Below are positions 26,175 to 51,477 of a DNA stretch of 64,000 nt, one piece after another. This DNA comes from an uncultured Spartobacteria bacterium (GTDB taxonomy: Bacteria; Verrucomicrobiota; Verrucomicrobiia; Chthoniobacterales; Chthoniobacteraceae). Positions within the stretch are counted from its first letter, which is position 1. Each line of letters opens with the position of its first letter. The translations under genes were made by a program, and so were the position numbers. The notes beneath the pieces were generated by a model, which was given only the letters and a program-made list of their open reading frames with translations, ran no database searches and was not told where the DNA came from. The stretch spans positions 1 to 64,000 of the forward strand of contig CAIURC010000088.1 in NCBI GenBank assembly GCA_903901425.1, given 5' to 3'.

Positions 26175-27029
26175 CTAAGGATTTCCCGCGCCGAGGCTGC
26201 CTGAAGTCCAGCGTTCCCCGCAGTTCAGGGTCTGGAACCGCAGACCAAGGCTGCGGCATTCCGATTCAAAGACCGCCGGATCAGCCGTGTTGAACTCGAA
26301 CATGTTGAAATGATGCGGGATCGCGAGCCGGGCACCGCATTCCTTCGCCAACCGGGCCGCCTCGCGGCCGTCGAGGTTTCCCGCCACGCGCCCGTTTTTC
26401 GCGCCATTGATGGGCAGCAAAACCACATCCGGCTGCGCCGCCCGAAGCAGCCCGGGCAACGCCTCGTGCCAGCAGGTGTCGCCGCTGTGGTAAAGCGTCC
26501 ATGGGCCAAACCGGATCAGATACCCAAGAAACCGGCACCGTCCATTCTCGTCCCGTTCCACGGTGTTGTGGGCGGCCGGGATGCCCGTCAGCTCGAATCC
26601 GGCAATCTCCACCCGGGTTCCCGCATCCATCCCATGATACTGCACCGCCCCCGCAGAAAGGCGTTGCCGGGCCACAGACACCGTGGCCTCCGGAAGCACC
26701 AGCGGCAACGGCATGGACCGCGCCAAAGACATCGGCACCAGCGTGTCCGCATCCAAATGGTCCGTGTGCGCGTGGCTCGACACCGCCACATCCACAAATC
26801 CCAGCCCGGCCGGATCCAGACACCGTTCTGTCATTCGCACGTGCTCCAGATCCGTTCCGGCATACTTCCGGGTCAGCGAATCGGACAGGTACGGGTCCAC
26901 CACCAAACACCGGTCCTGCCACCGAAGCACAAACCCGCTCTGGCCAAGCCACCACAGCCCAAACCCCGACCCCGCGCCGGACCGGATATCGGCCAGTAGT
27001 TCCGCATCCCGCTGCACCGGTGGAATCAT
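26175..27029 (-). CDS. Metallo-beta-lactamase-fold hydrolase, UlaG-like
   Basis: This 284-aa cytosolic protein has the HxHxDH zinc motif (H86-A-H88-T-D90-H91-L-D) and later GDT and PHHFNMFEFNTADP segments that supply further metal ligands. The FGLWWLGQSGFVLRW start and YHSGDTCWHEALP segment match the UlaG/L-ascorbate-6-phosphate lactonase group, so hydrolysis of a sugar lactone or sugar phosphate is likely. Its ATG overlaps the stop of the ThuA-like gene by 4 bp (ATGA). It is the last gene of a minus-strand group. Confidence 0.85.
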   Translation of the reverse strand: MIPPVQRDAELLADIRSGAGSGFGLWWLGQSGFVLRWQDRCLVVDPYLSDSLTRKYAGTDLEHVRMTERCLDPAGLGFVDVAVSSHAHTDHLDADTLVPMSLARSMPLPLVLPEATVSVARQRLSAGAVQYHGMDAGTRVEIAGFELTGIPAAHNTVERDENGRCRFLGYLIRFGPWTLYHSGDTCWHEALPGLLRAAQPDVVLLPINGAKNGRVAGNLDGREAARLAKECGARLAIPHHFNMFEFNTADPAVFESECRSLGLRFQTLNCGERWTSGSLGAGNP

Positions 27030-27946
27030 CGTCCCCCTCCGTTGCCCGATTCACCGCTGGTGCCAGGCCGTTTTGCAAGCGCCTCAAGGATGTCCGCTCG
27101 CTCCACATACTCCGCCTCGACGCCGCTGGGCGGCACCTCGAGGCGCGCCGTCCATGCAATCGCGTTCAGCAGGAGCTTCCGGAATCCGTCGTTTTTCCAA
27201 TTGTTGTAGAAGTGTCCACACGAGGTGCCGAAGCCGCGCCCGCCGTCCTCCCGTTCCACAGCCCATGCCACCCAGCGCCCGTCCGGTTCACGACCGTCCA
27301 ACTGCGGCACAGCCAGCAGGGGCACTACCCGGCCCGGTGCCTCCGCGAACCGGAGGTTGTAATAAAACTCGTCCCGCAACCGGAAGGGTTTCACGCCCCG
27401 GACCACGGGATGCTCGGGCCTCGGCAATTGAAGGTCGTCTTCCACGACCCGGATGGCGGAGTGCCATTTCCGGGCTCCGCCGGTTTCCCACTGAAAATAG
27501 CCGCCGCTCCAGCGCAGGACTTGGTCACGGAACGCCTCGGGCGCGAACACGGAGAAATGGAACGTCACAAGGCCGCAGCCCCGTTGGATTTGGCGTTCCA
27601 TGAGAGCCCGGCGTTCTTCTGTGGCCAGATGCGGCGCTTCCTCGCCGATGTGTCCGTCCCGGCCATCCGAGATCAACACCACTGTGTCCGCGCTCTCGAG
27701 GGTACCCGGGTTTTTCGGCCATCCGTCAAAGTGGGTTTCCACCTGCACCTGCTCCCGGACATTCGAGCGTTCGAAGAGCACCTGCAGCAACCGGACCGAC
27801 CACGGGTAATCATGAATGCCGTTCCCCTCAGGGCCGTGGCTTTTTGTTCCTGCAATGAGCACCAGCTTTTTCGGCCCGCCCGTGCCTGGCGCTGCGAACG
27901 CTGCGGAATGCAGGAGCAGGAGACCGGCAAGAAGGAGCGCTTTCAT
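27026..27946 (-). CDS. Secreted ThuA-like protein
   Basis: The 306-aa protein carries a signal peptide (MKALLLAGLLLLHSAAFA). A ThuA/trehalose-utilisation glutamine-amidotransferase-like domain follows with LVLIAGTKSHG, ADTVVLISDGRDGH and a GLVTFHFS segment. These domains occur with Gfo/Idh proteins in sugar-degrading clusters of Verrucomicrobiota and Planctomycetes, where they are thought to act on trehalose- or glycoside-derived sugars, but the reaction is not settled. A PVVRGVKPFRLRDEFYYNLRF segment is typical of the secreted ThuA subgroup. It overlaps the downstream MBL gene by 4 bp and lies 41 bp downstream of the isomerase-like gene. Confidence 0.85.
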   Translation of the reverse strand: MKALLLAGLLLLHSAAFAAPGTGGPKKLVLIAGTKSHGPEGNGIHDYPWSVRLLQVLFERSNVREQVQVETHFDGWPKNPGTLESADTVVLISDGRDGHIGEEAPHLATEERRALMERQIQRGCGLVTFHFSVFAPEAFRDQVLRWSGGYFQWETGGARKWHSAIRVVEDDLQLPRPEHPVVRGVKPFRLRDEFYYNLRFAEAPGRVVPLLAVPQLDGREPDGRWVAWAVEREDGGRGFGTSCGHFYNNWKNDGFRKLLLNAIAWTARLEVPPSGVEAEYVERADILEALAKRPGTSGESGNGGGR

Positions 27947-27987: not shown

Positions 27988-29313
27988 TTACGTTACCGCA
28001 TGGATTCGGATGCCGAACACGGCCCCGACCGACTCCAATGCCGCCAGATGATGGCCGGTCATCAGCAAATAATGGTGCGAGGCAAGCTGCGTCATCATCC
28101 GGTGCCCGTCTGGAACCCGGATCACGCCGCCGTTTACGCAATCCGAGTCGGGGTCACCCCAGTAGCCGGTGAGTTCGCCCTCGATGACCGTCATGGTGCC
28201 CATGTCTGGATGGAGTTTGGCCAGCGTGACCGGTCCCTCGGGCAACCGGGCATCAATCGCGTGCGCGTTTTCGTCTACGATCGCCAACACCTTTTTCCGG
28301 AGGGTCCACTGGGTTGCAAAGGACTTCGGCACGACACCAAGGAAACCGCAATGCGCCACAAGGATATAGTTGCGCGGATCGCCCGGCACTTCCGGGAACG
28401 CAGCAATCCGTTCGTGCTTGAGTGCCGCCTGCCCCATGAGGAAGGGGTACAGGTTGGTCATCATGATGGGCGCTCCAAGGGACCGGTGCAGGATTAGCTT
28501 GCTGAGCATCGCCATCACGTCCGCTTCGCACCCCCAGATCAGGCGCCTTTCCTCGTAGAGGAGGTTCCACGCCAGACACGGCGTGCAATCCGAGAACGCG
28601 GACTCATTCAGGCAGTTGATCCCCACCCCCTGCACGCCGCCGTCCTCTCCGATGTCGCGCCGGATCGCCAAGTACATTTTGATCGCAGACAACAACCCCT
28701 TCTCAGGCAGGCCCGAGCTGATTTCACGTCCTGCCAGCGCCTCCCGAGCTTCCGCGTCCGGCACCGCCTTGGCCTCCGCCCCGAGCTTCTTGAAGCTCCT
28801 CTTTTCGATCCCGATCCCGAACTTGGCCAGGATCCGGTTCACACACTCGCTTTCCCACCAGTAGAACCGTTTGAAAATCGGGGCCTGCATTCCTTCCCCC
28901 GGGTTGTCCTGGTAAACGACAAACTTCTGGTGACCCAGCTCACGCCGGACCGCGAGCGCGCGCAACACGGCCCGCGTGTGCTCCCCGCTGTAAGGCGCAA
29001 GAATACGGTCTCCCGCCCCTTCACCCCTGAGATACGTGATGATTTCCCAGTCCCACATCGAAAGCGTTCCGAATTCCGAGGTGAGCACCAGCACCGGGAC
29101 ATTCAATGCCCGGAAATCGGCTACCCGCCGGTACGCTTCGCCGAGCAGTTGGGGAAACACCACCGCATCGCAGGACGGCAATGGCGTGCCCAACGCCACC
29201 GGCTCGAGGAATTCCGCTTCGTGGCCAAACAACTCATTCAAAGCCAACAACTGACGATCGAAGCCGGCATCCCGGCCCGGCTCAAAGTAGAGGGGGAGCA
29301 ACTGTGTTTTCAT
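27988..29313 (-). CDS. L-fucose/L-arabinose isomerase-fold protein
   Basis: The 441-aa protein has the three-domain L-fucose isomerase architecture: an N-terminal Rossmann-like part (SCDAVVFPQLLGEAY), a middle domain with AGREISSGLPEKGLLSAIK, and a C-terminal part with CEADVMAMLSKLIL and GHHLAAL. Glu, Asp and His ligands of the metal-dependent isomerases are likely (NESAFSDC, GCEADV) but cannot be assigned exactly. It would interconvert an aldose and a ketose in the catabolic cluster. The start at 29313 overlaps the stop of the upstream oxidoreductase by 4 bp, which supports it over an ATG at 29373. Confidence 0.8.
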   Translation of the reverse strand: MKTQLLPLYFEPGRDAGFDRQLLALNELFGHEAEFLEPVALGTPLPSCDAVVFPQLLGEAYRRVADFRALNVPVLVLTSEFGTLSMWDWEIITYLRGEGAGDRILAPYSGEHTRAVLRALAVRRELGHQKFVVYQDNPGEGMQAPIFKRFYWWESECVNRILAKFGIGIEKRSFKKLGAEAKAVPDAEAREALAGREISSGLPEKGLLSAIKMYLAIRRDIGEDGGVQGVGINCLNESAFSDCTPCLAWNLLYEERRLIWGCEADVMAMLSKLILHRSLGAPIMMTNLYPFLMGQAALKHERIAAFPEVPGDPRNYILVAHCGFLGVVPKSFATQWTLRKKVLAIVDENAHAIDARLPEGPVTLAKLHPDMGTMTVIEGELTGYWGDPDSDCVNGGVIRVPDGHRMMTQLASHHYLLMTGHHLAALESVGAVFGIRIHAVT

Positions 29314-30467
29314 ACAAGTTCGCGTTTGCCTGTTTCCGCCGAACGCAGCCCGGCTTCCAAAACCCGGATGCATTTCAGGCCATCCCGGAAATCAGGATCG
29401 ATGGGCGTGCCGTTTGCCACGGCTGCGACAAAGTCCGCCACCGCGTGCACAAACCCGTGCTCGTACCCGATCGTGTGCCCGGGCGGCCACCAGTGCTGGA
29501 TGTAGGGATGACAGGGCTCGGTCGCCAAGATGGTCCGGAACCCCTGTGCATGGACCGGATCCTGTCTGGAATGCAGCTCCAATTCGTTCATCCGTTCGAG
29601 GTTGAAACAGAGTGCGCCTTCGCTGCCGTAAATCTCGAATGTGTTGCGGTTCTTCCGGCCCGTGGCAAACCGGGTGGCCTCAAACGAACCCACGGCACCG
29701 GACGCAAACTCGACGTGCATCAGCGAGGCGTCCTCGACGGTCACCCGGCCTTTGCCCGCCGCACCCGTTCCGGCGCTGAATGTCGCAGCCCCCTCTCCCG
29801 GAAGCGGCCGCTCCGCAATGAACTGCGCGGTCAGACACGAGACGCTCCGGATGTCGCCCACCAGATAGTGCGCAAGATCCACGCTGTGCGAGTTCAAGTC
29901 CCCGTGCGGGCCGCTCCCGGCGGTTTCTTTCTGCAGATGCCAGGTCAACGGGAACTCCGGATCCACGATCCAGTCCTGCTGATAGGCGCCGCGCCAGTGA
30001 AAGATCCGGCCGATCCTTCCCTCGTCGATGATCTGACGGGCGAGGCGCACGGCGGGCGTCCGGCGGTAGTTGTGGTTCACATAATGCCGGATACCTGCGG
30101 CCTCGGCGGCCGCCAGCATGGACTCGGCGTCCGACGCCCGCAGCGCCATGGGTTTTTCGCAGAACAAATGTTTTCCGGCGCGCGCGGCGGCGATTGCCAC
30201 CTCATGGTGGAGATGCTGCGGAAGCGAAATATCGACCACGTCCACGTCGTCCCGTTCGAGAACCTTTCGCCAGTCCGTTTCGACGTCTTTCCAGCCCCAG
30301 GTGTCGGCAAAGGCGCGGACTGCTTTTTCGTTCCGGCCGCAGGCGACCTGCAGGACAGGCCGGACTGGCAGGTCAAAAAAGCGCGACGCCTGAAGCCAGG
30401 CGTTGCTGTGTGCCTTGCCCATGAACTGATGCCCAAGGATCGCGATTCGCAGTTCGTTGTTTTTCAT
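29310..30467 (-). CDS. Gfo/Idh/MocA-family oxidoreductase
   Basis: The 385-aa protein begins with an NAD(P)-binding Rossmann fold (RIAILGHQFMGKAHSNAW), has the family's HLFCEKPMAL segment with the conserved Lys, and the C-terminal alpha/beta domain with GPHGDLNSHSVDLAHYLVGD. Members oxidise or reduce sugars and inositols. The alternative GHQFMG loop replaces the more usual GCGxxG, so cofactor preference may differ. The gene is within the minus-strand operon and overlaps the isomerase by 4 bp; the TIM-barrel gene starts 4 bp upstream of its start on the same strand. Confidence 0.93.
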   Translation of the reverse strand: MKNNELRIAILGHQFMGKAHSNAWLQASRFFDLPVRPVLQVACGRNEKAVRAFADTWGWKDVETDWRKVLERDDVDVVDISLPQHLHHEVAIAAARAGKHLFCEKPMALRASDAESMLAAAEAAGIRHYVNHNYRRTPAVRLARQIIDEGRIGRIFHWRGAYQQDWIVDPEFPLTWHLQKETAGSGPHGDLNSHSVDLAHYLVGDIRSVSCLTAQFIAERPLPGEGAATFSAGTGAAGKGRVTVEDASLMHVEFASGAVGSFEATRFATGRKNRNTFEIYGSEGALCFNLERMNELELHSRQDPVHAQGFRTILATEPCHPYIQHWWPPGHTIGYEHGFVHAVADFVAAVANGTPIDPDFRDGLKCIRVLEAGLRSAETGKRELV

Positions 30468-30470
30468 GGT

Positions 30471-31331
30471 TCAGTTCAGGTCCGCCGCCACACGTTTCAA
30501 GTACGCCACACTCTTCGCGACCATCTCATCCTCGCGCCCAGTCCAGTCCGGATGCGGCATGTCCGTCTCGAATGCCAGGAAGCCTTTGTATCCGGCGTCT
30601 TTCAGCACCTGGGCAATCTTCGGGATCTCCACCAAACCTTCCCCGGCGGGTACGCAGGCAAAATAACACCATTCCCGCACATCCACCCCCTTGACCGGCC
30701 GGAGATCTTTCACGTGGGTTGCGTAGACGTGCTTGGCTAGCTTCCGCGTGGCCTCCACAGGATCGTCGAGCACCCGGAGGAAGTTGGCCGTGTCCAAGTT
30801 CACTCCGAAATATTCCGAGCCCACCTGTTCCACGAGCCACAGAATCTCGTCTGCGTTGTAGTCGATGTGATTCTCCACCGCCAACCGGATCCCGGCCCGG
30901 GCCGCCACCTCCGTGGCTTCCCGAAACCATGCCGCAAGTGTCGCCAATTGGGGCTCATGGGGCCCGAACCGGAACCGGAGGCTGCTCCCCACCACCCGCA
31001 TCACTGGTGCTCCGATCCGTTTCGCGTACTCGATGTGCCGGATCATCTCGTCCCGCGCCGCCAGATTGCCACCCGCCTCCAGCCCATCGGGATGCCCCCA
31101 GGCATACACCCGGTCCATCCCCAGTGCGTCCAGACGCCGTCTCAACCCCTCCAAATAGTCCGGACTGAATTCCGGGAAAAAACAGGACTCCAGCGAGATC
31201 CCGTCGCACCCCATTTCCTTGGCCCGCTCCAGGATGGAATCCATGGTGTGGGGGGTTGGGGCGGGGATTTGACCGGGATACACTTCACCGAGGAACCGGT
31301 GGTAACAGTAGCTGTCGATGCCGACTTTCAT
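30471..31331 (-). CDS. Sugar phosphate isomerase/epimerase (xylose-isomerase-like TIM barrel)
   Basis: The 286-aa protein is an AP endonuclease family 2-type TIM barrel as found in IolE, IolI and related sugar isomerases: MRVVGSSLRF, RLAVENHIDYNADEILWLV (Glu and His metal ligands), GVNLDTANF and ATHVKDLRP. A divalent-metal aldose-ketose isomerase or epimerase activity is likely. It is the first gene of the operon 31331-26175. The identical upstream motif at 31434-31449 is shared with the second operon. The ATG at 31331 begins at MKVGIDSYCYHR, typical for this family. Confidence 0.92.
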   Translation of the reverse strand: MKVGIDSYCYHRFLGEVYPGQIPAPTPHTMDSILERAKEMGCDGISLESCFFPEFSPDYLEGLRRRLDALGMDRVYAWGHPDGLEAGGNLAARDEMIRHIEYAKRIGAPVMRVVGSSLRFRFGPHEPQLATLAAWFREATEVAARAGIRLAVENHIDYNADEILWLVEQVGSEYFGVNLDTANFLRVLDDPVEATRKLAKHVYATHVKDLRPVKGVDVREWCYFACVPAGEGLVEIPKIAQVLKDAGYKGFLAFETDMPHPDWTGREDEMVAKSVAYLKRVAADLN

Positions 31332-31433
31332 AAAAGGGGATGGGGGAGGGGCGCGTGCCGGAGCTTTAGGCCTCTGACACTCCTGACAGTAGATCCCGAA
31401 CTCATCCGGGGAAAGGCACTGAAAGGGATTCCT

Positions 31434-31449
31434 CTTATACTTTTGCGCA
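31434..31449 (-). promoter_or_regulatory. Candidate operator shared with the second sugar operon
   Basis: On the minus strand this reads TGCGCAAAAGTATAAG. The same 16 bases occur at 40389-40404. Both copies lie upstream of the first gene of a catabolic operon (102 bp from the start at 31331 and 55 bp from the start at 40333). The only regulator in the two clusters is the XylR-like protein at 32357-33532, which is the obvious candidate binder. Confidence 0.6.
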
Positions 31450-31852
31450 CGCTGTGCCCTTCCATCCCGAAGGGCCGTGGACGCTTTTTCAAGACCCCGG
31501 TTTCCCGCCAGAAATGCCCTGATATTTGACCCAAAGGCTGTCCAGTCGTTGCCCTGCCAGATCGGCCTACACGGGCGCCGTATTTTTTCTTGCCCGTGCG
31601 GAAAGCATTCTCCGAAAGACCACAGAATTGCACGGTTGCGTTCGGATCCTTGTCCTGTGCGGGACCGGGCGGGCCTGCTGATGGGTCAGGTCTGGGGGGA
31701 GCGGCAGCAGCGGTCGTTGGATGCCGGAGCGGTCTCATCACCTCGAGGGGAATCCAGCCCATACCCCGCCCTGACACAGACCACTGGCACCGGGGATCTG
31801 TGGATGTTTTGGAAGCTGAGACTGATCCAAACCTGCCGGAATCCGGGGCGTT

Positions 31853-31995
31853 CTATCGACCCGCTATTGGCCGGAAGCGAAAATTCGGTGGGCGATAGGA
31901 TTCTAGGTTTTATGCGGGTTGGCGGGCGATATTGCAGCCTTTCTATCGCCCATCTATCGCCCTTTTTGAGCGATAGGCGGGCGCTTGTCCGATAG
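31853..31995. repeat. Cluster of CTATCG/CGATAG hexamers
   Basis: Six copies of CTATCG or its complement lie in 143 bp (31853, 31893, 31943, 31954, 31971, 31990), most extended to CTATCGCC. Two of them form a hairpin, CTATCGC-loop-GCGATAG at 31954-31976. The rest of the 31332-31997 region holds only weak, overlapping open frames with no domain character, plus the shared motif at 31434. Confidence 0.55.
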
Positions 31996-31999
31996 CCTG

Positions 32000-32378
32000 T
32001 CATGGGACCGCCCAGTACCGTCGCCAGCGTTTGCTGCCCTGAATGCGCACCTGGCCACGCACGATCAAGTCGTCCAATGCCCGTTTGACTTGCTTGGGAT
32101 GGATCTCGTCACCGATGCGCTGATGAATATCGCTGATGGCTGACTCGGGGTAGCGCTGAAGGTCTTCGAGCAGCAGCGCTGCCAAGCGGTGCGGTTCAAT
32201 GCGCTTGAGCGTGGTCTCACCGGCCCATCGTCTGAATCGCCGCCCAACTCAGCGCAGTCTTCCAGACAGTCGGTATTCCATCTGTCCCAAGCATACGCTT
32301 TGTCCCCTGCGCGTTTAGGAACGGCCTGAACTCTGCAACGCATTCCCGAAGCTCGCTCAGGTCTGGTGGAAGCTGCGG
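32000..32378 (-). pseudogene. Decayed gene remnant ending in a winged-helix domain
   Basis: On the minus strand a protein-like frame starts inside the 3' end of the XylR-like gene (SELRECVAEFRPFLNAQ), runs to IQTMGR and stops at about 32219. The adjacent frame then continues with GETTLKRIEPHRLAALLLED and ends with a winged-helix-like segment, AISDIHQRIGDEIHPKQVK, and RIQGSKRWRRYWAVP. Joining the two requires one frameshift near 32220. No start codon context or promoter is apparent. The parent family is not recognised; the tail resembles winged-helix C termini of AAA/AlbA-type DNA-binding proteins. The CTATCG cluster directly follows it. Confidence 0.5.
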
Positions 32379-33532
32379 CGGTAATCGCCGGGCGTCTGGC
32401 CCGTGTGCTTTTTAAAGAAACGGGACATGTACTCGTGGTAGGCGAATCCGCATTGTTCCGCGATAACAGGAAGGATACAGGACGTTTCGGACAGCAACTG
32501 TTTCACCCGGCGGAGACGGAGCGCGTTGACTTCCTCCATTGGCGTTCGGCCGGTGCAGAATCGGAACCGTTTTTCCAATGCCCGTCTGGAGAGACCAGCT
32601 GCGCGCGCAATCGCGGCGCTGCCGATGTCCGTGTATGCGTTTTCACGGATGTACCGGATGGCTTTGGCGACATTTGGGTCCCGCACCGCGATGATGTCCG
32701 AGGACTGGCGCGTCACCACCTCGCCGGGCTCAAGAAAGATGTTCTGGGGCGCCACCTTTTCCCCGCGCATCATGCGGTCCAGCAATGCGGCGGCCTCAAA
32801 GCCGAGTTGCTGCGCGTTCTGGTCAAGGCTCGAAAGTGCCGGCGTCGACAGCTCACAGAGCACACGGTCGTTGTCCACACTCACCACCGCGACCTCGTCT
32901 GGCACAGGAATCCCGGCCCGGGAACACGCATCCAGCACCTGAACCCCCTGGCTGTCGTGCGCCGTCATGATGGCCACGGGCTTCGGCAAACCCTCCAGCC
33001 ACTCCACCATGGCTTCCTGCTCCTTCTCCCAGTTTCTTTCGGCGTCCACCATGTAGGTGGGCTTGTATTCCGCACAGTCTCCGCCGTTTTCCTCCACAGT
33101 CCGGAGAAAGGCTGCGTGCCGACGGCGCTCCCAGAGCTTGTTCCCTGCGATCCCGCAGTAGCCGAAATGGCGGAAACCGCGGCTCAAAAAATGGGTGGCA
33201 ATCCGCTCAGCGATCAGGCGCTGGTCAGGGAAGAGCGTTGGAAACTCCGGCTTGTCGTGCAGATGCCGGAGACTGACAACGGCCAAGCCTCGCTTCTGTG
33301 CTCTGCGGCAGAGCTTGAAGTCGAAACTCCGCGTGATGATGCCGTCCCCTTCCCAACGCGCAAGCCATGGGGGATCCGGATCGTTCTGGCCGCGCTCGTG
33401 GATGAATACGTTCCATGGCCCGTGCAACGTGAGGTACCGGCTGATTCCCAGCAGAATCTCGCGCCCGTACACCTTCGAAGTCTCCACAATCAACGCCACC
33501 CGCGGCTTCCGCTTCCGATTCTGGGCGTTCAT
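32357..33532 (-). CDS. XylR-type hybrid regulator (LacI-like sensor + AraC HTH)
   Basis: The 391-aa protein has an N-terminal periplasmic-binding-like sugar sensor (VALIVETSKVYGREILLGI to SRAGIPVPDEVAVVSVDND, about residues 10-270). A C-terminal AraC HTH pair follows (ADIGSA-type first helix pair near 290-310, then VIAEQCGFAYHEYMSRFFKKH near 360-380). This is the arrangement of the xylose regulator XylR, and DAC-like residues bind a sugar or sugar derivative. It is the last gene of the operon 40333-32357 and would control both operons through the shared motif. Start 33532 (MNAQNRKRK) is preferred; the open frame extends 42 codons further without family character. Confidence 0.9.
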   Translation of the reverse strand: MNAQNRKRKPRVALIVETSKVYGREILLGISRYLTLHGPWNVFIHERGQNDPDPPWLARWEGDGIITRSFDFKLCRRAQKRGLAVVSLRHLHDKPEFPTLFPDQRLIAERIATHFLSRGFRHFGYCGIAGNKLWERRRHAAFLRTVEENGGDCAEYKPTYMVDAERNWEKEQEAMVEWLEGLPKPVAIMTAHDSQGVQVLDACSRAGIPVPDEVAVVSVDNDRVLCELSTPALSSLDQNAQQLGFEAAALLDRMMRGEKVAPQNIFLEPGEVVTRQSSDIIAVRDPNVAKAIRYIRENAYTDIGSAAIARAAGLSRRALEKRFRFCTGRTPMEEVNALRLRRVKQLLSETSCILPVIAEQCGFAYHEYMSRFFKKHTGQTPGDYRRSFHQT

Positions 33533-33551
33533 CACGGAAATTCGTCGAACC

Positions 33552-34223
33552 TTAAGACTGCATCCCGCTCCGCTCGATGTCCCGGACCCGGATGGCGTTC
33601 CGGGCTGCTGCTGTAATGCCGGCCCAGTTGCCTGAGAGAATCGCGTCTCTGGGCGCAATCCAGGAGCCGCCGATCCCGCCGACTGCGGGTTCCCGGAGGT
33701 AGTCGGCGAGGTTGTTCTGGCTCAACCCACCCAGCGGAATGTAGCGGACACCCAGATGCGCATACGGAGCCGCCACCGTCTTGAGATACGTCAGGCCGCC
33801 ACTCGGTTCTGCCGGGAAAAGTTTCAAAAGCTTCCGGTCAAATTCCAGTGCCCGCTCAATGTCGCTTGGTGTGCAAACACCCGGCGCAAACGGCAGGCCC
33901 GCGTTCAGCGCCGCCTCCACCACACGCGGATTCATCCCGGGCGCGACTCCAAATTCGGCCCCGTGCTCGAGCACCTGCAGCGCCTGTTCCGGGGTCAGCA
34001 CGGTGCCAACACCGGTCAGCATTTGAGGCGCGTCCCGGCGCAACAACCGGAGCGCCTCAAGGGCAGCCGGGGTGCGCAGCGTGAGTTCCATGGCTGTCAC
34101 GCCGCCCTCCATAAGCGCCTCCGCGAGGGGTACGGCGTCCTCCGGACGATCCACCACAGTGACCGCCACGATGCAGGCCCGGCTCAATTTCCCAAACACT
34201 TCCTGCTCCTTGGACTGGCTCAT
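33552..34223 (-). CDS. eda: KDPG/KHG aldolase family protein
   Basis: The 223-aa class I aldolase has the Schiff-base lysine K134 in KLFPAEPSGG (family KFFPAE) and the acid/base segment MELTLRTPAAL near residue 45. It would cleave a 2-keto-3-deoxy-6-phosphosugar acid to pyruvate and glyceraldehyde-3-phosphate, or a related substrate. A GGAGGAGCGC ribosome site precedes the start at 34223. The start overlaps the stop of the hydroxyacid dehydrogenase by 4 bp. Its presence shows that the operon feeds a keto-deoxy acid into central metabolism. Confidence 0.9.
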   Translation of the reverse strand: MSQSKEQEVFGKLSRACIVAVTVVDRPEDAVPLAEALMEGGVTAMELTLRTPAALEALRLLRRDAPQMLTGVGTVLTPEQALQVLEHGAEFGVAPGMNPRVVEAALNAGLPFAPGVCTPSDIERALEFDRKLLKLFPAEPSGGLTYLKTVAAPYAHLGVRYIPLGGLSQNNLADYLREPAVGGIGGSWIAPRDAILSGNWAGITAAARNAIRVRDIERSGMQS

Positions 34224-35179
34224 GCGCTCCTCCTCTCCATGCCGGAACACTCGGTCGAACGCAATCCGGCAATCAGGTTGTCCACAGCCTGGCTCATCGC
34301 GCGGTCAATGCTCTCCTGAGTGTACCCGCCCGTATGCGGTGTCGCCACCACCCGCGGATGCTTTACCAACCGCCAGTCCGCGGGCGGCTCCGAGTCAAAG
34401 ACGTCCAGCGCGAGTCCGCCCAGTTGCCCGCTTTCCAACGCCTCCAAAACCGCCTCCGCCTCCATGACATCGTACCGCGCCGTGTTTACCACACGCGCAC
34501 CCTGCCGCATTTTTCCCACGGCCTCCCGGTTCAATACTGGTGTGCCGTCCGGGCGCGGAGGACAGTGCAGGCTCAGAAAATCCGACTCCGCCAACACCTC
34601 CTCCCATCCCGCATACCGAAACCCCGCGCCCGGATGGAACTCCGGGTCTGGAAACTGTTCGAAGGCCAGCACACGCATCCCGAGCCCGAGCGCCATCCGT
34701 GTGACGAGCTTGCCGATCCGTCCGCATCCGAGGATTCCAAGGGTGCGCCCCTCGATTTCAATGCCCGGACTGGTGCGTTTCCAAAGACCGGCCTTGAGCG
34801 TGGCGTCGGAGGAAGCGCAGGACCGTGCCAACCCGAGAATCTGGCTGATGGCCAGTTCCGCAACACCCCGCGCATTCGCACCCTCAGCGCGCACCACCAG
34901 AATTCCGCGCTCTCGGGCAGCCTCAACGTCCACGGTGTCGGTCCCGGTGCCGTTCCGGCTGATCACCCGGAGATCCGATGCCTCTTCAAGGACTGCGGCG
35001 GTGACAGGCTCGACGCCCGCAAGATAACCGACACAACCTGGGAGAAGGGTGCGCAGTTCGTTTTCGCCCGGCTGTTCGCCTGGGGTTGGGAAGACGACCC
35101 GGTACCCGGCCTGCTCCAGGCGCTGGAGCGACGGATGCCCGGAGCGGGTCACGGAACGGGGTGTGACGAGGATTTTCAT
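34220..35179 (-). CDS. 2-hydroxyacid dehydrogenase (PGDH-like)
   Basis: The 319-aa protein is a D-isomer-specific 2-hydroxyacid dehydrogenase: a catalytic-domain start, the NAD loop GILGCGRIGK, the ISRNGTGTDTVD segment, NTARYDV and the PHTGGYTQES segment with the catalytic His. In NTARYDV the usual NxARG has Tyr in place of Gly after the catalytic Arg. In this operon it could oxidise or reduce a sugar acid. It starts 3 bp after the upstream cupin gene's stop (35183) and overlaps the aldolase by 4 bp. Confidence 0.92.
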   Translation of the reverse strand: MKILVTPRSVTRSGHPSLQRLEQAGYRVVFPTPGEQPGENELRTLLPGCVGYLAGVEPVTAAVLEEASDLRVISRNGTGTDTVDVEAARERGILVVRAEGANARGVAELAISQILGLARSCASSDATLKAGLWKRTSPGIEIEGRTLGILGCGRIGKLVTRMALGLGMRVLAFEQFPDPEFHPGAGFRYAGWEEVLAESDFLSLHCPPRPDGTPVLNREAVGKMRQGARVVNTARYDVMEAEAVLEALESGQLGGLALDVFDSEPPADWRLVKHPRVVATPHTGGYTQESIDRAMSQAVDNLIAGLRSTECSGMERRSA

Positions 35180-35182
35180 GGA

Positions 35183-35764
35183 TTATTCCACGTGGATCTT
35201 GCCGTTCCTGAGAAACACCCGGCGCGGGAACCCCTCGCGTTCGATGTCACCGTAGTTGTGTCCGGCGTCGCCGGGATAGACGCAGAACGAGATCAGCGGT
35301 TCGGACCCGGTGTTGATGCTGCGATGCCCCCAGTACGGCGGCACATAAACCATCCGGCCCGGCGCGAACTCTTCGTACCGGCATTTGCCGTCGTTGGTTT
35401 TCATCATCATGTAGCCCCGGCCACGCAGCGCCAAATAGATCTCACCGGTATTCAGGCGGGTGTGGTAGTGCCCTTTGGTCATGAAACATTCTTCGCCCAC
35501 CGTGCCGGGCCGCAGATCGCTGATACAGAACATCAGGTGACCGTACTGCTCCGGAACAGGCCGCTCATAAACCTCGTAATGCACCGGGTTTCCGGTATCG
35601 ATCAACTGCTGGAGCGCAGCCGCATCCCGGTAATGCCCGCGCATGTCTGAGGCGCGACGGACCAGATGGTTCGTGGGGTTTTTCATCGCACCCTCCACGA
35701 GGTCGTAGTCGACCGAGAAAGGCTCGATGAATGTCGTCTCTTGGGCTTCCAGTGTGCTGTTCAT
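35183..35764 (-). CDS. Cupin-type glucose-6-phosphate isomerase
   Basis: The 193-aa single-cupin protein has the metal site of archaeal-type phosphoglucose isomerase. His99, His101 and Glu108 in GHYHTRLNTGE and His147 in YWGHRS reproduce the +2, +9 and +48 spacing of His88/His90/Glu97/His136 in the Pyrococcus enzyme. It interconverts aldose-6-phosphate and ketose-6-phosphate using Fe or another metal. The MFCISDLRPGTVG and FMTKGHYH segments also match. In this operon it likely handles the product of the FGGY kinase. The start lies 27 bp downstream of the AroE-like gene. Confidence 0.88.
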   Translation of the reverse strand: MNSTLEAQETTFIEPFSVDYDLVEGAMKNPTNHLVRRASDMRGHYRDAAALQQLIDTGNPVHYEVYERPVPEQYGHLMFCISDLRPGTVGEECFMTKGHYHTRLNTGEIYLALRGRGYMMMKTNDGKCRYEEFAPGRMVYVPPYWGHRSINTGSEPLISFCVYPGDAGHNYGDIEREGFPRRVFLRNGKIHVE

Positions 35765-35791
35765 AATGAGTGTGTTCCCTTCGGGTGGCGT

Positions 35792-36736
35792 TTAGCGGGT
35801 CGACGCGGCAATCTCCGAGAGCTTTTCAAATGCCGGGCCCCGGGTCGGAATCTCCACGTTGAACACGTCTGAAATCACCCGGGTCCACCCATGCAGAAAA
35901 TAGTTCCAGCCGTCCTCCACGTGGAGGCCCGAGGCGGCCTGTTGCGCCTTTGCCTGCTCCATAAAAAGCAGGTCGCCCCGGTAGTTGAACTCCCACACCT
36001 GCGCGTTCTTGGGAAACCGCGCGCTGTCCGTCAGCGGCGATCCTGGCGCGTCCTTCCCAAGTCCCGTAGCGTTCACCACCAACGATCCGGGCGGCAAGGA
36101 TGCCAGGACACGGTCCGCGAGTGCGGGCTCGGGCACATGGTGCGTCTCCAGCGGAATCCCGGTGGCCCAGTCGGCATGCAGCTTCCGGAGATGATCCAGC
36201 CGCGGTGTGCTCCGGTTGGCCACGTGCACCCGGCTCGGGCGGTTGCTGCCGTGCTCGGCCTTGGTCAGATGCCATGCCAGCGCCATTGCGGATCCGCCTG
36301 CGCCGAGGATTAACGCTTCCGCGCCAGTCTTGCTCCAGTGGTCGGCGGGCAGAAACGCTTCCAGCGAGTATCCGACAGTCCATGGATCCGCCGCTCGCGC
36401 ATGGAGCCTTCCGTTTCGTTTGTAAATGCTGCTGAGCTCGCCCATCGCGCCGGACAACGGCTCGAGTTCATCAAACTGGTCCCGGCACGCGGCGCACAAA
36501 TCGATCTTGTGCGTGGTGACAAGCGCGCCGAGCGCCAACGGATCGTTTCGGAGGTACTCGACGGCCTCCCGGTACCGGGCAGGCTCGGCGTGCAACGGGA
36601 AATCCATCCCGCGGAGCTCGCAGGGTCCGAGGCCGAGATGCGCAGCCCAACGGGGAAAGACTTTGTTGATGGACGACTTTGCGGTCGTCACGCCGATGAA
36701 AAACATCGTTGGTTGTGTGCAGGGTGTGTATGACAT
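35792..36736 (-). CDS. Shikimate-dehydrogenase-fold (AroE-like) protein
   Basis: The 314-aa protein has the AroE two-domain layout: ALVTTHKIDLC (with the catalytic Lys of VTxPHK), a NADP loop LILGAGGSAMALAWHL and the VNATGLGKDAPGSPL segment, and a C-terminal DGWNYFLHGW instead of the shikimate-type DGxxMLVxQ. The shikimate-pocket GAVNT and NTD segments are replaced (GAMGELSS, AADPWTVG), so the substrate is probably not shikimate but another polyol acid in the catabolic pathway. The start is 36736; MFFIGV at 36706 is an alternative. It is within the minus-strand operon between cupin isomerase and kinase. Confidence 0.8.
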   Translation of the reverse strand: MSYTPCTQPTMFFIGVTTAKSSINKVFPRWAAHLGLGPCELRGMDFPLHAEPARYREAVEYLRNDPLALGALVTTHKIDLCAACRDQFDELEPLSGAMGELSSIYKRNGRLHARAADPWTVGYSLEAFLPADHWSKTGAEALILGAGGSAMALAWHLTKAEHGSNRPSRVHVANRSTPRLDHLRKLHADWATGIPLETHHVPEPALADRVLASLPPGSLVVNATGLGKDAPGSPLTDSARFPKNAQVWEFNYRGDLLFMEQAKAQQAASGLHVEDGWNYFLHGWTRVISDVFNVEIPTRGPAFEKLSEIAASTR

Positions 36737-36745
36737 GGGAAATTC

Positions 36746-38230
36746 TCAGGAGTCGCGCCGTGCCCAGCCCGTCAGGGCCTCCAGCAGCGCCTCATACCGT
36801 TCCAGACGCGCCCGGTAATGCGCGCCCCGGGTGGTGTCCGGTTCGAACCGTCTGCCGAGGCGCACCCAGCGCTCCGCCGCCTCGCTGACGCCGGACAAAA
36901 CTCCAACCCCGACACCCGCAAGCATCGCCACTCCCATCGGCGCCCCGCCTCCATCCTGGATTTGAACAATCGGGATCCCGAGCACATCGGCTTTGATCTG
37001 ATTCCAAACCGCGCTCTTCTCGCCGCCCCCTGTGATCCGGAGTTCACGCAGGTCGAGATCCGGCAGCAGCCGGGAAAGCGCTTTTCGGTACACCGCGTAC
37101 TCGAGTGCAACCGACTCGAGCACGGCGCGGTACATATCGGCGCGGGTGTGGTCCCACCCGAGTCCCGCCCATGCTCCTCGCAACTCGGGTACCGCTGGCG
37201 ATACACGCCCACCGAGATGGGGCAGAAAAAATGGCAGATCTTCCCGAGTCGACTCCGCCTGGCTGTTGAGTTCCTCAAAAGTTTGTCCGGGTCCACCCAT
37301 CTCGCGACGGAACCATTCAAGATTCATTCCGCCCCCGTTGATGTACGCGTAGGAATGCCACAGGTCGGCTGTGGCTGCGCGCCCGCACCCAAGCGTTCCT
37401 CCGTGGATATCCGGCGCGAACGCCCCAGTGGTGGCCGCAAACACCGAGGCTGTCCCCGCCACATCCACGCAGACACCCGGCTGGGTTGCGCCGCACGAAA
37501 GGAAGCTGGCTGCCGTGTCACCGCATCCTGCCACCACCGGCGTTCCCGACCGGAGCCCGCATCGCGCCGCCATCCCAGCCGAGACGGCGCCGATGATGTC
37601 GGTGGGCTGCACAATGCTCGGAAGCAGAGTCGGGTTGATGCCGAACCGCTGGCAGAGTCCGGACTCCCACTTCATGGACCGGTTGTCTGCAAACCCTGAG
37701 AAATGCAGGTAGGTGGTGTCGATGAACGGTTCGGGATTTCCGCAGAGCCGGAGTGCCACGTAGCCCGCCGGCTGCACAAACTTGGCAATCTGGGCGTACT
37801 CAGCGGGCCGCTCGTTCCGCCACCACAGGATTTTCGGGCCGTGGTTGAAGCTGGGCGCGTTCCCGGTGGCGCGGAGAACCTGTTCGCCGGCACCCTCTGC
37901 CATTTGGACGATCTGCGGGGCACACCGCTTGTCGAGCCAGGAGTCGTACGGGGTCACTGCATGACCGGTCCGGTCGATCCCGATCACACCTGCCATCTGC
38001 CCGGTGATGCCCACTGCCGCCACGTCGCAGGCACCCGCTTTTTCGAGGCAGATCTGGATGACCCGGCAGGCCGACTCCAGATGAAACTCCGGATTCTCCT
38101 CCACCGCACCGGGTTCGGGCCGGAGCAGACGGGACGGTTCAAACGCCTCCGAGATGCAAAGTCCTTCTACCGTGTACAAGGCGGCTTTCACGCCTTGGGT
38201 TCCGATATCGATGCCAAGCAGGTGCGACAT
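36746..38230 (-). CDS. FGGY-family carbohydrate kinase (xylulokinase-like)
   Basis: The 494-aa kinase begins with MSHLLGIDIGTQGVKAALYT, the phosphate-1 motif of the actin-like sugar kinase fold. It has AVGITGQMAGVIGID and CGDTAASFLSCGA (phosphate 2 and adenosine regions) and ITGGGEKSAVWNQIKADVLG near the C terminus, the xylulokinase-type nucleotide site. It phosphorylates a ketose or polyol. The start at 38230 is used because upstream residues are low-complexity. It is 9 bp upstream of the AroE-like gene and follows the Zn-alcohol dehydrogenase by 17 bp. Confidence 0.93.
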   Translation of the reverse strand: MSHLLGIDIGTQGVKAALYTVEGLCISEAFEPSRLLRPEPGAVEENPEFHLESACRVIQICLEKAGACDVAAVGITGQMAGVIGIDRTGHAVTPYDSWLDKRCAPQIVQMAEGAGEQVLRATGNAPSFNHGPKILWWRNERPAEYAQIAKFVQPAGYVALRLCGNPEPFIDTTYLHFSGFADNRSMKWESGLCQRFGINPTLLPSIVQPTDIIGAVSAGMAARCGLRSGTPVVAGCGDTAASFLSCGATQPGVCVDVAGTASVFAATTGAFAPDIHGGTLGCGRAATADLWHSYAYINGGGMNLEWFRREMGGPGQTFEELNSQAESTREDLPFFLPHLGGRVSPAVPELRGAWAGLGWDHTRADMYRAVLESVALEYAVYRKALSRLLPDLDLRELRITGGGEKSAVWNQIKADVLGIPIVQIQDGGGAPMGVAMLAGVGVGVLSGVSEAAERWVRLGRRFEPDTTRGAHYRARLERYEALLEALTGWARRDS

Positions 38231-38247
38231 GGGGGGAACAGGTTGGT

Positions 38248-39291
38248 TCAGGCGCCAATCTGGAGACTGGTCTTCAGTCCGCGGGCACTGGCCATCGCTG
38301 CAATCGCGTCTGTGGTGTTTTCGAGGCTGTACGTCGCTGTCACGAGATCCTCCAGCCGCAGAACCCCCTCGGTGACCAACTCCAAACACGCTTGGAACTG
38401 GCGCAGACTCTGGCGTGTGGTGCCCGTCACCATGAGTTGGCGGTAGTGAATCAGGTTCGTGTCCAACGGCACGAGGGCGCGGTCCTTGGGCAGGCCACCG
38501 AAAAACACGACCCGCCCGTTGACTGCCGCAATCTCCACCGCAAGAGTCTGCGCCTCGGGCGCCGGACATGCCGTGATGACCACGTCCGGGCCGCGTCCAC
38601 CGGTCATCTCCAAGATGCCGGCGCGCACATCCCCCTGAATGGTCAGGAACATCGGATCGAGACTCCGCGCCATCTCCAGCCGTTCCGCGTGGAAATCGTT
38701 GATCACGACTTTGGCTGCGCCCGCCAAGCGCGAGATCTTTGCGTGCATCACCCCAATCGGTCCGCCTCCGATGATCAGCACCGTGTCGCCTGGTCGGGTG
38801 CCCGCCTTCTCGTAGGCGTTGTAGACGCAGGACATCGGCTCAATCAGCGCCGCCTCTTTGAACGAGACATGGTCGGCAATCGGGAACACGTTTCCTTGCG
38901 CCACCGCGTCCGCCGGGATCCGGACAAACTCGGCAAATGCGCCGTCTTCATGAATTCCCAATGCCCGGTAATCCGGATCCAGATGTCCGTCCCCGGCCAC
39001 CACGAGCCGAGACCGGCGCGGGTTGTAGTTTGGCGCGACACAGACCCGCTGGCCCACTGCGTAACCCGCGACGCCCTCGCCCAATTTCTCAATCGTGCCG
39101 GACAACTCATGTCCGATCACCAGCGGGTTCTCCTCGGTTGCGTACGCGTGCCCGTGTTTGAGCATCCGAATATCGGTCCCACAGATGCTTGCCACCGCGG
39201 TGCGGAGCAGGATTTCCCCGGGCAAAACCACAGGCACCGGGATGTCTTGAATTCGAAGGTCGTTTTTTCCGAAGAGTCGTGCGGCTTTCAT
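38248..39291 (-). CDS. Zinc-type polyol/sorbitol-like dehydrogenase (MDR family)
   Basis: The 347-aa medium-chain dehydrogenase has a catalytic zinc site (Cys37 of CGTD, His61-Glu62 of GHELSG), the GDTVLIIGGGPIGVMHAKI cofactor loop and a FVRIPADAV segment. The loop between that normally carries four structural-zinc cysteines (here NYNPRRSRLVVAGDGHLDP) has none, so it probably lacks structural zinc. It likely oxidises a polyol to the ketose that the neighbouring FGGY kinase phosphorylates. The start at 39291 begins MKAARLFGK; upstream Ser/Pro-rich codons are excluded. Confidence 0.92.
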   Translation of the reverse strand: MKAARLFGKNDLRIQDIPVPVVLPGEILLRTAVASICGTDIRMLKHGHAYATEENPLVIGHELSGTIEKLGEGVAGYAVGQRVCVAPNYNPRRSRLVVAGDGHLDPDYRALGIHEDGAFAEFVRIPADAVAQGNVFPIADHVSFKEAALIEPMSCVYNAYEKAGTRPGDTVLIIGGGPIGVMHAKISRLAGAAKVVINDFHAERLEMARSLDPMFLTIQGDVRAGILEMTGGRGPDVVITACPAPEAQTLAVEIAAVNGRVVFFGGLPKDRALVPLDTNLIHYRQLMVTGTTRQSLRQFQACLELVTEGVLRLEDLVTATYSLENTTDAIAAMASARGLKTSLQIGA

Positions 39292-39310
39292 AAAGAATGG
39301 AGGCGGGGTT

Positions 39311-40333
39311 TCAGGTGAGCTGGATGGGTTTGCGCTCGAGGATGGATTGGTTTCCGGCATTCACCACGGCCACAGCGGCCCTGCCGTCCCGGCCGTTCAC
39401 AGAGGCAGACCGCTCCGAGCGGATCGCGTCGATGAACTCGCAGTCTTCCGCGAGGTAAGCGTCCCGGTACAAACCCGTCCATGAGACGATCGCCGGCTGG
39501 CGCAGCTCCTTGTCCCGTGTGCAGACGACCGCTGCGCCGGCATTGAGCCTGCCAATGGTGATCAGCCCGTGTGTGCCCACGATCTCCACCCGGGAGTCGT
39601 ATGCATACTGCACACCCTGCGCCCCCGTGATGCTCCCCTGCGCGCCGTTGTTGAACCGGGCGGTCAGAAGGACTTGGTCGTAAAAGTCTGGGAATTCTGC
39701 CCGCGCCTCCGGGGTCCGGTAATTGCCCGCGATGGCGTACACCTCCTGGAACTCGCTTCCGGTGAACCAGCGGAGTGTGTCGATGTCATGGCTGCACACC
39801 TCTGCGAGCGGTCCGTTGCTCAGGCGGAGATCGAACATCCAGGGCTTTGGATAGGTCGGCCCATGGGTGCAGGATTTCACGAGGACCACCTCACCGATCT
39901 CGCCGGCCTGAACGCGTTCCCGGGCTTGGCGGAACCCTTCGTCGAACCGGCGCATAAACCCAATCTGGAGAACGATCCCGGCCTTGTCGGCTGCAGCCAC
40001 CATGCGGTCGCATTCCGCCGGATTCATGGCCATGGGCTTCTCACAGAAGACATGCTTGCCGCGCTCGGCTGCCGCAACTGCGATCTCACAGTGCAGGGCC
40101 GTGGGAGCGGCAATCAGGATCGCGTTCACCTTCGGGTCATCCAACAATGCCCGGTAATCTTCGTACTGGGCAACGCCACCCAATGCCTCCGAGGCCGATG
40201 CCCGCGTGGCGGCCACAGGATCGGAGACCGCGGCCACACCGGCTCCCGGAACCAAACGTGCAAAGTTTTGCGCATGGATCATTCCAGCCCGGCCGGAACC
40301 GACAATACCGACGTGAACGAGGGGTTTCTGCAT
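39311..40333 (-). CDS. Gfo/Idh/MocA oxidoreductase (inositol-dehydrogenase-like)
   Basis: The 340-aa protein has the N-terminal NAD fold HVGIVGSGRAGMIHAQNFA, the KHVFCEKPMAMNP segment and the catalytic C-terminal half with GPLAEVCSHDIDTLRWFTG, in which His is the likely proton relay. IQIGFMRRFDEGF resembles myo-inositol 2-dehydrogenase and related sugar dehydrogenases. It is the first gene of the 40333-32357 operon. The shared motif lies 55 bp upstream, and the gene is preceded by about 190 bp without other coding. Confidence 0.93.
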   Translation of the reverse strand: MQKPLVHVGIVGSGRAGMIHAQNFARLVPGAGVAAVSDPVAATRASASEALGGVAQYEDYRALLDDPKVNAILIAAPTALHCEIAVAAAERGKHVFCEKPMAMNPAECDRMVAAADKAGIVLQIGFMRRFDEGFRQARERVQAGEIGEVVLVKSCTHGPTYPKPWMFDLRLSNGPLAEVCSHDIDTLRWFTGSEFQEVYAIAGNYRTPEARAEFPDFYDQVLLTARFNNGAQGSITGAQGVQYAYDSRVEIVGTHGLITIGRLNAGAAVVCTRDKELRQPAIVSWTGLYRDAYLAEDCEFIDAIRSERSASVNGRDGRAAVAVVNAGNQSILERKPIQLT

Positions 40334-40388
40334 GGGCCGAATCTAGCGGGCATCCCACGCCTGGGGCCATGACCACTGTCGCAAGAAA

Positions 40389-40404
40389 CTTATACTTTTG
40401 CGCA
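40389..40404 (-). promoter_or_regulatory. Candidate operator, second copy
   Basis: The minus-strand sequence TGCGCAAAAGTATAAG is identical to that at 31434-31449. A partial second copy, AAAAGTATC, lies at 40465-40473 in the same orientation about 70 bp away. No clear -35/-10 pair was recognised between the motif and the start at 40333. Confidence 0.6.
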
Positions 40405-40525
40405 TAGCCCCGGGGCCCGGATCCACCCAGGACACGCGCACCGCGGCAGATCTCGGGTCAGGATGATACTTTTCCCCTTCCCGCTCCGCCGGCTGGCAGA
40501 ATCTCCTGCGGCCCGGAGCAACCGC

Positions 40526-50652: not shown

Positions 50653-51477
50653 GTGGACGTTGCTGGAATCATCGAGTCGGGCCAGTCGAGCGCATGGCTG
50701 TATCTCCCCGTGGCCATGCTTTTGGGCGCGTTGCACGGCCTGGAACCTGGCCATTCCAAGACCATGATGGCCGCGTTCATCGTGGCGATCCGGGGCACCG
50801 TTTTGCAGGCCGTGCTCCTCGGCCTTTCCGCGGCGGTGTCGCACTCGGCGCTCATTGCTGTGCTCGCCGTGGGCGCGCTCCGGTTCGGCACCGGATGGAC
50901 TGCGGAGAAAGTTGCGCCCTACCTTGAAACGGTTTCGGGCGCCTGCATCGCACTCCTGTCGCTCTGGATGCTAGCCCGAGCCCGGCGAGAACTGCATCCG
51001 CCCGACCATGGGCATCACCACCATGGGCATCACCACCATGGGCATCATCACGGACATGGGGATCACCACGGGCATGGCGGCGAGGACAGGGAATTTCAGG
51101 ACGCCCATGAACGCGAGCATGCCGCGGAAATCGCGGCCCGGTTCGCAGGTCGGACCGTCACGACTCCCCAAATTCTCCTGTTCGGGCTCACGGGCGGACT
51201 GATGCCGTGTCCGGCGGCTTTCTCGGTCTTTCTGATCTGTCTGCAACTCAAACGCGTGACACTCGGCGTGGCCATGGTTGCCGCGTTCAGCGTGGGTCTG
51301 GCGCTGACCATGGTTGCGGCGGGGGTCGCTGCTGCCTGGGGGGTCCGCCATGCCGGCAGCCGTTTTGCCGGGTTCGGCACTTGGGCGCGACGTGCACCGC
51401 TGGTTTCGGCCGGCCTGATGCTGTGCGCCGGACTGGCCATGCTGGTGCACGGGGTGCAGGCGTTGGGCAGGCTTTGA
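50653..51477 (+). CDS. rcnA: RcnA-like nickel/cobalt exporter
   Basis: The 274-aa membrane protein starts with GTG at 50653. GALHGLEPGHSKTMMAAF (residues about 22-39) is the NiCoT/RcnA HxxxxEPGHxK motif in the first helices. A cytoplasmic loop (about 117-145) contains some 17 His residues in GHHHHG repeats, typical of the Ni/Co-binding loop of RcnA. The later helix has GLTGGLMPCPAAFSVF. The family exports Ni2+ and Co2+ across the inner membrane. It follows the cyclophilin gene and a hairpin; no RcnR-like regulator was seen nearby. Its stop is 4 bp from that of the convergent MBL-fold gene. Confidence 0.92.
   Translation: MDVAGIIESGQSSAWLYLPVAMLLGALHGLEPGHSKTMMAAFIVAIRGTVLQAVLLGLSAAVSHSALIAVLAVGALRFGTGWTAEKVAPYLETVSGACIALLSLWMLARARRELHPPDHGHHHHGHHHHGHHHGHGDHHGHGGEDREFQDAHEREHAAEIAARFAGRTVTTPQILLFGLTGGLMPCPAAFSVFLICLQLKRVTLGVAMVAAFSVGLALTMVAAGVAAAWGVRHAGSRFAGFGTWARRAPLVSAGLMLCAGLAMLVHGVQALGRL

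Follow-up and report, generated by a model that had tools for sequence, protein, structure and literature searches.

Two adjacent operons in a 64,000-nucleotide stretch of DNA from an uncultured Spartobacteria bacterium (contig CAIURC010000088.1; the whole stretch is referred to below as the window) are preceded by the same 16-bp motif, and a gene for a XylR-like protein lies between the two motif copies. Operon 1 runs on the minus strand from position 31331 downwards, with the gene of a TIM-barrel protein first. Operon 2 extends from 40333 to 32357 on the same strand, with an IolG-like dehydrogenase gene first and the regulator gene last. Do these operons form one regulon, and which protein recognises the sequence in front of them? 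Comparison with related genomes reveals a 38-bp element before both operons, and the sequence evidence makes it highly probable that the XylR-like protein (32357-33532) binds the two predicted operators as a class II activator of both operons, and thereby of its own gene.

The repeated 16-mer

The motif, TGCGCAAAAGTATAAG, is found without mismatch at 31434-31449 and 40389-40404, both on the minus strand, 102 bp before the ATG at 31331 and 55 bp before the ATG at 40333, exactly as the original prediction had placed it. These are the sole matches in the window at up to three mismatches, while shuffled windows contain 0.15 such matches on average. The motif is not widespread elsewhere either. The genome of origin (5.1 Mb, 224 contigs) holds two exact copies, none with one or two mismatches and seven more with three, compared with 21 matches for the reversed control pattern.

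Taken alone, the exact repeat is little proof, as repeated 16-mers are expected by chance in a 64-kb window. The window contains 22 of them (overlapping); in 20 runs of a first-order Markov null, the mean is 3.5 and the range 1-11. Arguing significance from the 16-mer alone was rejected because this null also yields such repeats; it is cross-genome conservation, not 16-mer identity, that proves the element. At 51005-51045, the repeat count additionally picked up a short direct repeat in tandem, its period being 15 bp.

Conservation of a 38-bp element

The promoters of this genome and its relatives share a 38-bp element, for which 14 sites give the consensus ggCGCAAtTGTATAAnTTttTTgCcGcannGtTCATTg. 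The 16-mer is a real feature but represents only the upstream half-site of this element, which lies at 40367-40404 (minus strand) before the iolG/kinase operon and at 31412-31449 (minus strand) before the TIM-barrel operon. In total, seven genomes yielded 18 copies, which precede the same pathway genes: three each in the genome of origin, G003, G022 and L072, one each in G065 and G088, and four in G250. A candidate before the TIM-barrel gene of G065 (L043 8461) was left out, as it falls below its permuted maximum.

When the profile was built from other genomes only, the two window sites scored 37.2 (iolG) and 20.1 (TIM) and ranked first and second among 127,926 positions, the next position reaching 10.8. 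The weaker of the two still exceeds the maximum of 18.2 obtained with permuted profiles (30 runs). Held-out profiles likewise placed the sites at ranks 1-3 of 55,854 in G003, 1-2 of 29,440 in G022, 1 of 61,754 in G065 and 1-3 of 42,242 in L072.

Genome G250, a single contig from another family, carries nearly the whole gene set, and its regulator is 61% identical. With G250 kept out of the training set, and the sulfatase site described below also omitted, the profile gave the four best of 55,852 positions in this genome scores of 39.0, 26.4, 24.1 and 20.3, all above the permuted maximum of 17.5 (100 runs); the fifth position scored 8.0. The four sites lie directly before the iolG, metallo-beta-lactamase-fold hydrolase (MBL), AroE-like and KDPG aldolase genes, each in the right orientation.

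Whole genomes were scanned with a model built from 11 sites. Only the best first-look candidates of each genome were scored (at most 150 in the genome of origin and ten others, 31 in the order, 17 in the class), so that weak sites can be missed. At E<=10, the genome of origin has three model matches, namely the two window sites (genome-wide E 1.6e-5 for iolG and 0.016 for TIM) and a weaker one on C197 (22013-22048, plus strand; L090 1501-1538 / L101; E 0.088), which is followed at 21 bp by TAGTGT and lies about 127 bp before a gene for a secreted-type sulfatase (PF00884). The sulfatase gene is a possible further member of the regulon. In G022, a site outside the training set (E 2.8e-4) was found on another contig, directly before the operon encoding the TIM-barrel and levoglucosan-dehydrogenase-like proteins. 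Six of the ten other genomes, all devoid of an orthologous regulator, gave no element match, and four of these six (G001, G002, G018, G107) carry regulator paralogues that are 40-44% identical.

Within the order (213 genomes), eight genomes have matches at E<=0.1, and those below 1e-3 are the four regulator genomes and G088. The weak matches in G075, G174 and G077 (E 0.065-0.093) were read as chance from the bare sequence, without gene calls. Among 384 genomes of the class, the element was detected at E<=0.01 in five (G000, G003, G065, G250 and G088), a scan that returned one of the three sites of the genome of origin. A regulator orthologue at E<=1e-110 occurs in four of the 384 (G000, G003, G065 and G250), and all four have the element; three of these four are training genomes, and G250 is not. 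The proposal of one regulon for both operons is supported on these grounds, since relatives carry the element before the same operons.

The XylR-type regulator

The candidate binder (32357-33532, minus strand) combines a LacI-like ligand domain with an AraC-type helix-turn-helix (HTH) domain (Pfam PF13377, PF12833, PF22177). It has the arrangement typical of XylR-type proteins, PBP1_XylR / Peripla_BP_3 fused to a C-terminal HTH_18, and matches E. coli XylR (PDB 4fe7) over its full length (residues 8-385, E 1.2e-53). Its gene is the last of the kinase operon, 19 bp after the aldolase gene, and the protein therefore probably activates its own synthesis.

Homologues at E<=1e-60 are present in 34 of the 117 genomes searched, the genome of origin included. 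Apart from the latter, an identity above 46% is reached only in G003 (74%), G022 (76%) and G065 (61%); the regulator of L072, from the named collection, is 69% identical. Gene sets around the regulator are kept in G003, G022, G065 and L072, and in each of the six genomes with an orthologue its gene is part of the cluster. The L072 contig, CAMAUV010000011.1, belongs to a MAG and is labelled Akkermansia muciniphila. This label is probably wrong, because the regulator and the operons match Chthoniobacterales.

Architecture of the element and promoter position

The conserved blocks of the half-sites are GCGCAA..GTATAA (upstream) and TTRCSGC..GKTCATTG (downstream). In the iolG operator, the half-sites TGCGCAAAAGTATAAG (40389-40404) and TTGCGACAGTGGTCATGG (40367-40384), both on the minus strand, are 21 bp apart. 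The TIM operator has an identical upstream half-site (31434-31449) and a degenerate downstream one. Self-identity over the 18 sites is 0.40 at offset 21, and the remaining offsets between 12 and 26 give 0.19-0.29; the resulting z of 6.1 is not a probability, as the sites are related. One G250 site repeats 9 bp without mismatch, in direct orientation, at a distance of 21 bp. The element thus shows the two direct repeats, about two turns apart, that are expected of a XylR-type operator, with weaker backing from the column-profile test discussed below.

Most copies of the element are followed, 20-22 bp downstream, by a -10-like hexamer. The pattern TAnnnT is found there in 9 of 14 sites, where 0.66 would be expected, and no other offset in the first 60 bp, neighbouring ones excepted, gives more than four. 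With the G250 sites added, the count is 9 of 18, and (T/C)AnnnT, counted by eye, occurs in 16 of 18. The hexamers of the window are TAGATT at 40340-40345 (minus strand), 6 bp before the iolG ATG, and TACTGT at 31386-31391 (minus strand), 21 bp after the TIM operator. From this spacing, the element would cover about -71 to -32, the position of a class II activator next to the -10 box, as judged in silico. The iolG ATG follows the hexamer by 6 bp in five of six promoters, G250 being the exception, which predicts a leaderless iolG messenger. The iolG hexamer of L072 is poor (TAGCGG).

A XylR-type dimer would accordingly sit on two direct half-sites that are two turns of the helix apart and lie on the same face of the DNA, with the weak downstream half-site taking the place of a -35 box and RNA polymerase positioned at the -10-like hexamer. 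The position of the operator relative to the hexamer suggests an inducer-dependent class II activator. The inducer-bound dimer would switch on the operon from iolG to the regulator gene, its own gene included, as well as the TIM-barrel operon. From the computed site conservation, repeat geometry, -10 spacing and co-occurrence, we infer binding, activation, autoregulation and an inducer that would come from the pathway itself.

The original prediction also mentioned a partial third copy. The sequence AAAAGTATC is indeed present at 40465-40473 (minus strand) and unique in the window. It belongs to a lone sequence resembling the upstream half-site, AGGGGAAAAGTATCAT (40463-40478, minus strand), which the half-site profile places 16th among 127,970 positions. 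Its distance to the iolG operator, upstream of which it lies in the same orientation, is 74 bp, or some seven helical turns. Among ten other sites scanned, no comparable same-strand upstream half-site was seen except before the TIM operon of L072 (8.4 at -155); the iolG and TIM promoters of L072 also pick up each other's sites on the opposite strand. With its weak rank and no conserved counterpart in the relatives scanned, the third copy is only suggestive as a part of the operator. It may be an auxiliary half-site or a product of chance.

Contrary evidence and alternative explanations

Several observations weigh against activation by the XylR-like protein through an element of this architecture. 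The TIM site of the window has a degenerate downstream half-site, and the first register of the element was picked by eye with five genomes in view. Two L072 scores, 12.8 and 11.6, are barely above and below the permuted maximum of 12.4, and the TIM candidate of G065 scores 14.9, less than its permuted maximum of 18.0. In G250, three of four sites have CAnnnT instead of TAnnnT, and the fourth has no hexamer. In G088, which is 95% complete and carries the element, a regulator homologue was not found at E<=1e-20. Finally, the column-profile test gives a direct repeat at 21 a P of only 0.13 over all offsets and favours an inverted repeat, GCAA-N13-TTGC (P 0.03).

The inverted repeat was set aside, with some probability left to it, as it leaves the GKTCATTG block unexplained and offset 21 is prominent in the per-site test. 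The direct repeat is preferred because it covers both conserved blocks and fits both the 21-bp period of AraC/XylS half-sites, such as those of XylS and MekR, in the parts of PMC4514859 drawn on here, and the two direct repeats in the operator of a XylR homologue, in those of PMC12125979.

The XylR-like protein could instead act as a repressor, with TATAA(T) of the upstream half serving as the -10 box and the bound protein blocking RNA polymerase. In favour of this, several upstream half-sites contain a perfect TATAAT, and the protein has a LacI-like ligand domain. By eye, however, the sites inspected have no -35 box 17 bp upstream of TATAAT, a downstream -10-like hexamer is found at constant spacing, and characterised XylR-type proteins activate, as far as the consulted portions of the literature describe them. 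Repression is thus an unlikely alternative to activation by the same protein.

A slightly smaller chance is given to binding by a different transcription factor, such as one of the other AraC-type proteins encoded in the genome. The window itself contains one at 53436-54320, which makes the description of the XylR-like protein as the only plausible binder too strong, even though it is the most likely one. A search with the regulator hits 26 places in the genome of origin, nearly all through the AraC-type domain, and G088 has the element without the regulator. The G088 element (E 1.6e-4, outside the training set) lies before an iolG of 81% identity, whose neighbour is an alpha-L-rhamnosidase-like gene (L107 2676-3768). 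The rest of the kinase operon is not present in the stretch examined around iolG, which looks like transfer or loss. The regulator of G088 may have been lost or may be missing from the assembly; alternatively, a different protein may use the site. Against a different binder stands the orthologue of the XylR-like protein, which lies in the cluster in each genome possessing it and follows the element across the 384 genomes.

A chance repeat, or a common promoter shared without a specific regulator, is very improbable: chance does produce 16-mer repeats in a window of this size, but position-specific conservation in seven genomes and the cross-genome scans refute it unless the alignment is an artefact, and an element with only three model matches at E<=10 in its own genome is not a general promoter.

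Genes of the regulon and the putative pathway

Operon 2, on the minus strand throughout, begins with the IolG-like Gfo/Idh/MocA dehydrogenase (39311-40333; PF01408; TIGR04380 at 272.3 bits, cut-off 355) and a zinc alcohol dehydrogenase of the IolM/Tdh type (38248-39360; PF08240/PF00107; IolM model E 8.6e-50, 169.5 bits, cut-off 450). Both thus fall below the curated cut-offs of the myo-inositol IolG/IolM pathway models. An FGGY carbohydrate kinase follows (36746-38350, start approximate; PF00370/PF02782), which resembles XylB at 259 bits (cut-off 380). The next genes encode an AroE-like (shikimate dehydrogenase-like) oxidoreductase (35792-36736), a cupin-type phosphoglucose isomerase family protein (35183-35764; PF06560), a D-2-hydroxyacid dehydrogenase (34220-35179; PF02826) and a KDPG/KHG aldolase (33552-34250; PF01081; TIGR01182 above cut-off).

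The AroE-like protein matches the NCBIfam aroE models far below cut-off (best E 1.6e-11; Pfam E 0.022), and a sequence search at E<=0.01 finds no relative of it in the PDB. Of the 213 genomes of the order, 15 encode such a protein, in most cases next to a gene for KDPG aldolase, 2-hydroxyacid dehydrogenase or an MBL. The AroE-like protein may mark an undescribed pathway.

Operon 1, also on the minus strand, starts with a xylose-isomerase-like TIM-barrel protein (30471-31331; PF01261), which matches models of IolE and L-ribulose-5-phosphate 3-epimerase. The proteins of the two operons match no xylose isomerase model. A Gfo/Idh/MocA oxidoreductase resembling levoglucosan dehydrogenase comes next (29310-30467; NF052479 at 380 bits, cut-off 650). 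It is followed by a conserved 461-aa protein (27988-29373), here labelled FucI-like; it has no Pfam or NCBIfam match and is 60-74% identical in G003, G065, L072 and G250. A ThuA-domain protein (27026-27946; PF06283) and the MBL (26175-27029; PF12706) complete the list, the homologue of the latter having its own predicted operator in G250.

The stretch of about 0.9 kb between the regulator gene and the TIM site (31450-32350) lacks any convincing gene. The gene that follows the regulator in G003 and G022 instead encodes a secreted protein and has an element of its own. Genes for secreted proteins carry the site in G003, G022 and L072, and an MFS gene is divergent to the TIM operon in G003 and, read on the reverse strand, probably also in G022. 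Elsewhere in the window, 14915-20422 encodes a protein in which AMP-binding, carrier and cytochrome P450 parts are fused; genes for a sulfotransferase and a male-sterility-type reductase come next, and the group resembles a small cluster of the lipid or natural-product type.

The IolG- and IolM-like first steps suggest a cyclitol or an aldonate-like substrate, although both enzymes score below the curated cut-offs. Taken together, the genes allow a tentative reading, which we hold at somewhat under even probability, as an undescribed catabolic route. It would lead from the IolG-like and IolM-like dehydrogenases to the FGGY kinase, the AroE-like protein, the cupin isomerase, the 2-hydroxyacid dehydrogenase and KDPG aldolase, with the TIM/levoglucosan-dehydrogenase-like operon, the MFS carrier and secreted proteins (here perhaps the sulfatase) co-activated and the iolG messenger leaderless in several lineages. 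The substrate would then probably be a cyclitol or an unusual sugar released from a larger, possibly sulfated glycan, since a carrier and secreted proteins would be co-activated with the operons.

Comparison with known systems

Regulator and operator belong to a known kind, whereas the pathway that they would control is uncharacterised; among the papers listed, screened by title and abstract opening apart from those cited here, none describes this operator or regulon. Through the comparison of relatives, a lone repeated 16-mer has become a well-supported regulon. For this uncharacterised XylR-type regulon of Verrucomicrobiota, the operator, the regulator and the list of targets can now be tested, and the grouping of two operons into one pathway narrows the search for the substrate.

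The inositol pathway of Thermotoga uses IolG and IolM, names also carried by the NCBIfam models. The first two dehydrogenases here resemble these enzymes, but both stay below the curated cut-offs, and a kinase, an AroE-like protein, a cupin isomerase and KDPG aldolase follow. The lgu cluster for L-glucose and L-galactose in Luteolibacter (PMC12632266) is likewise verrucomicrobial and, in the sections of that paper cited here, has KDPG aldolase at its end and an activator annotated as Btr. It has an altronate dehydratase, a tagaturonate reductase and a PPi-using KDG kinase instead, and an L-glucose pathway as in Luteolibacter was rejected on the basis of this described gene set. The abstract, the first part of the Results and the Discussion of PMC12632266 give no operator motif for the lgu cluster.

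E. coli XylR and Vibrio XylRA combine a LacI-type ligand domain with an AraC-type DNA-binding domain, as does the regulator described here. To the extent covered by the cited parts of PMC12125979, the likeness extends from the full-length homology with E. coli XylR to an operator of two direct repeats and the predicted activation of sugar operons. The operator sequence differs, the inducer, by gene content, is probably another one, and the host belongs to the Verrucomicrobiota, whereas those of XylR and XylRA are Gammaproteobacteria. The 21-bp half-site period is shared with XylS and MekR, but the letters of the half-sites differ from those of XylS, MekR and MtlR sites, and the ligand domain here is LacI-like. 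A close parallel in geometry is MtlR, for which the part of PMC4514859 used here gives a strong upstream and a weak downstream half-site at -72 to -36, much like the strong upstream and weak downstream half-sites near -70 to -35 predicted for the present element.

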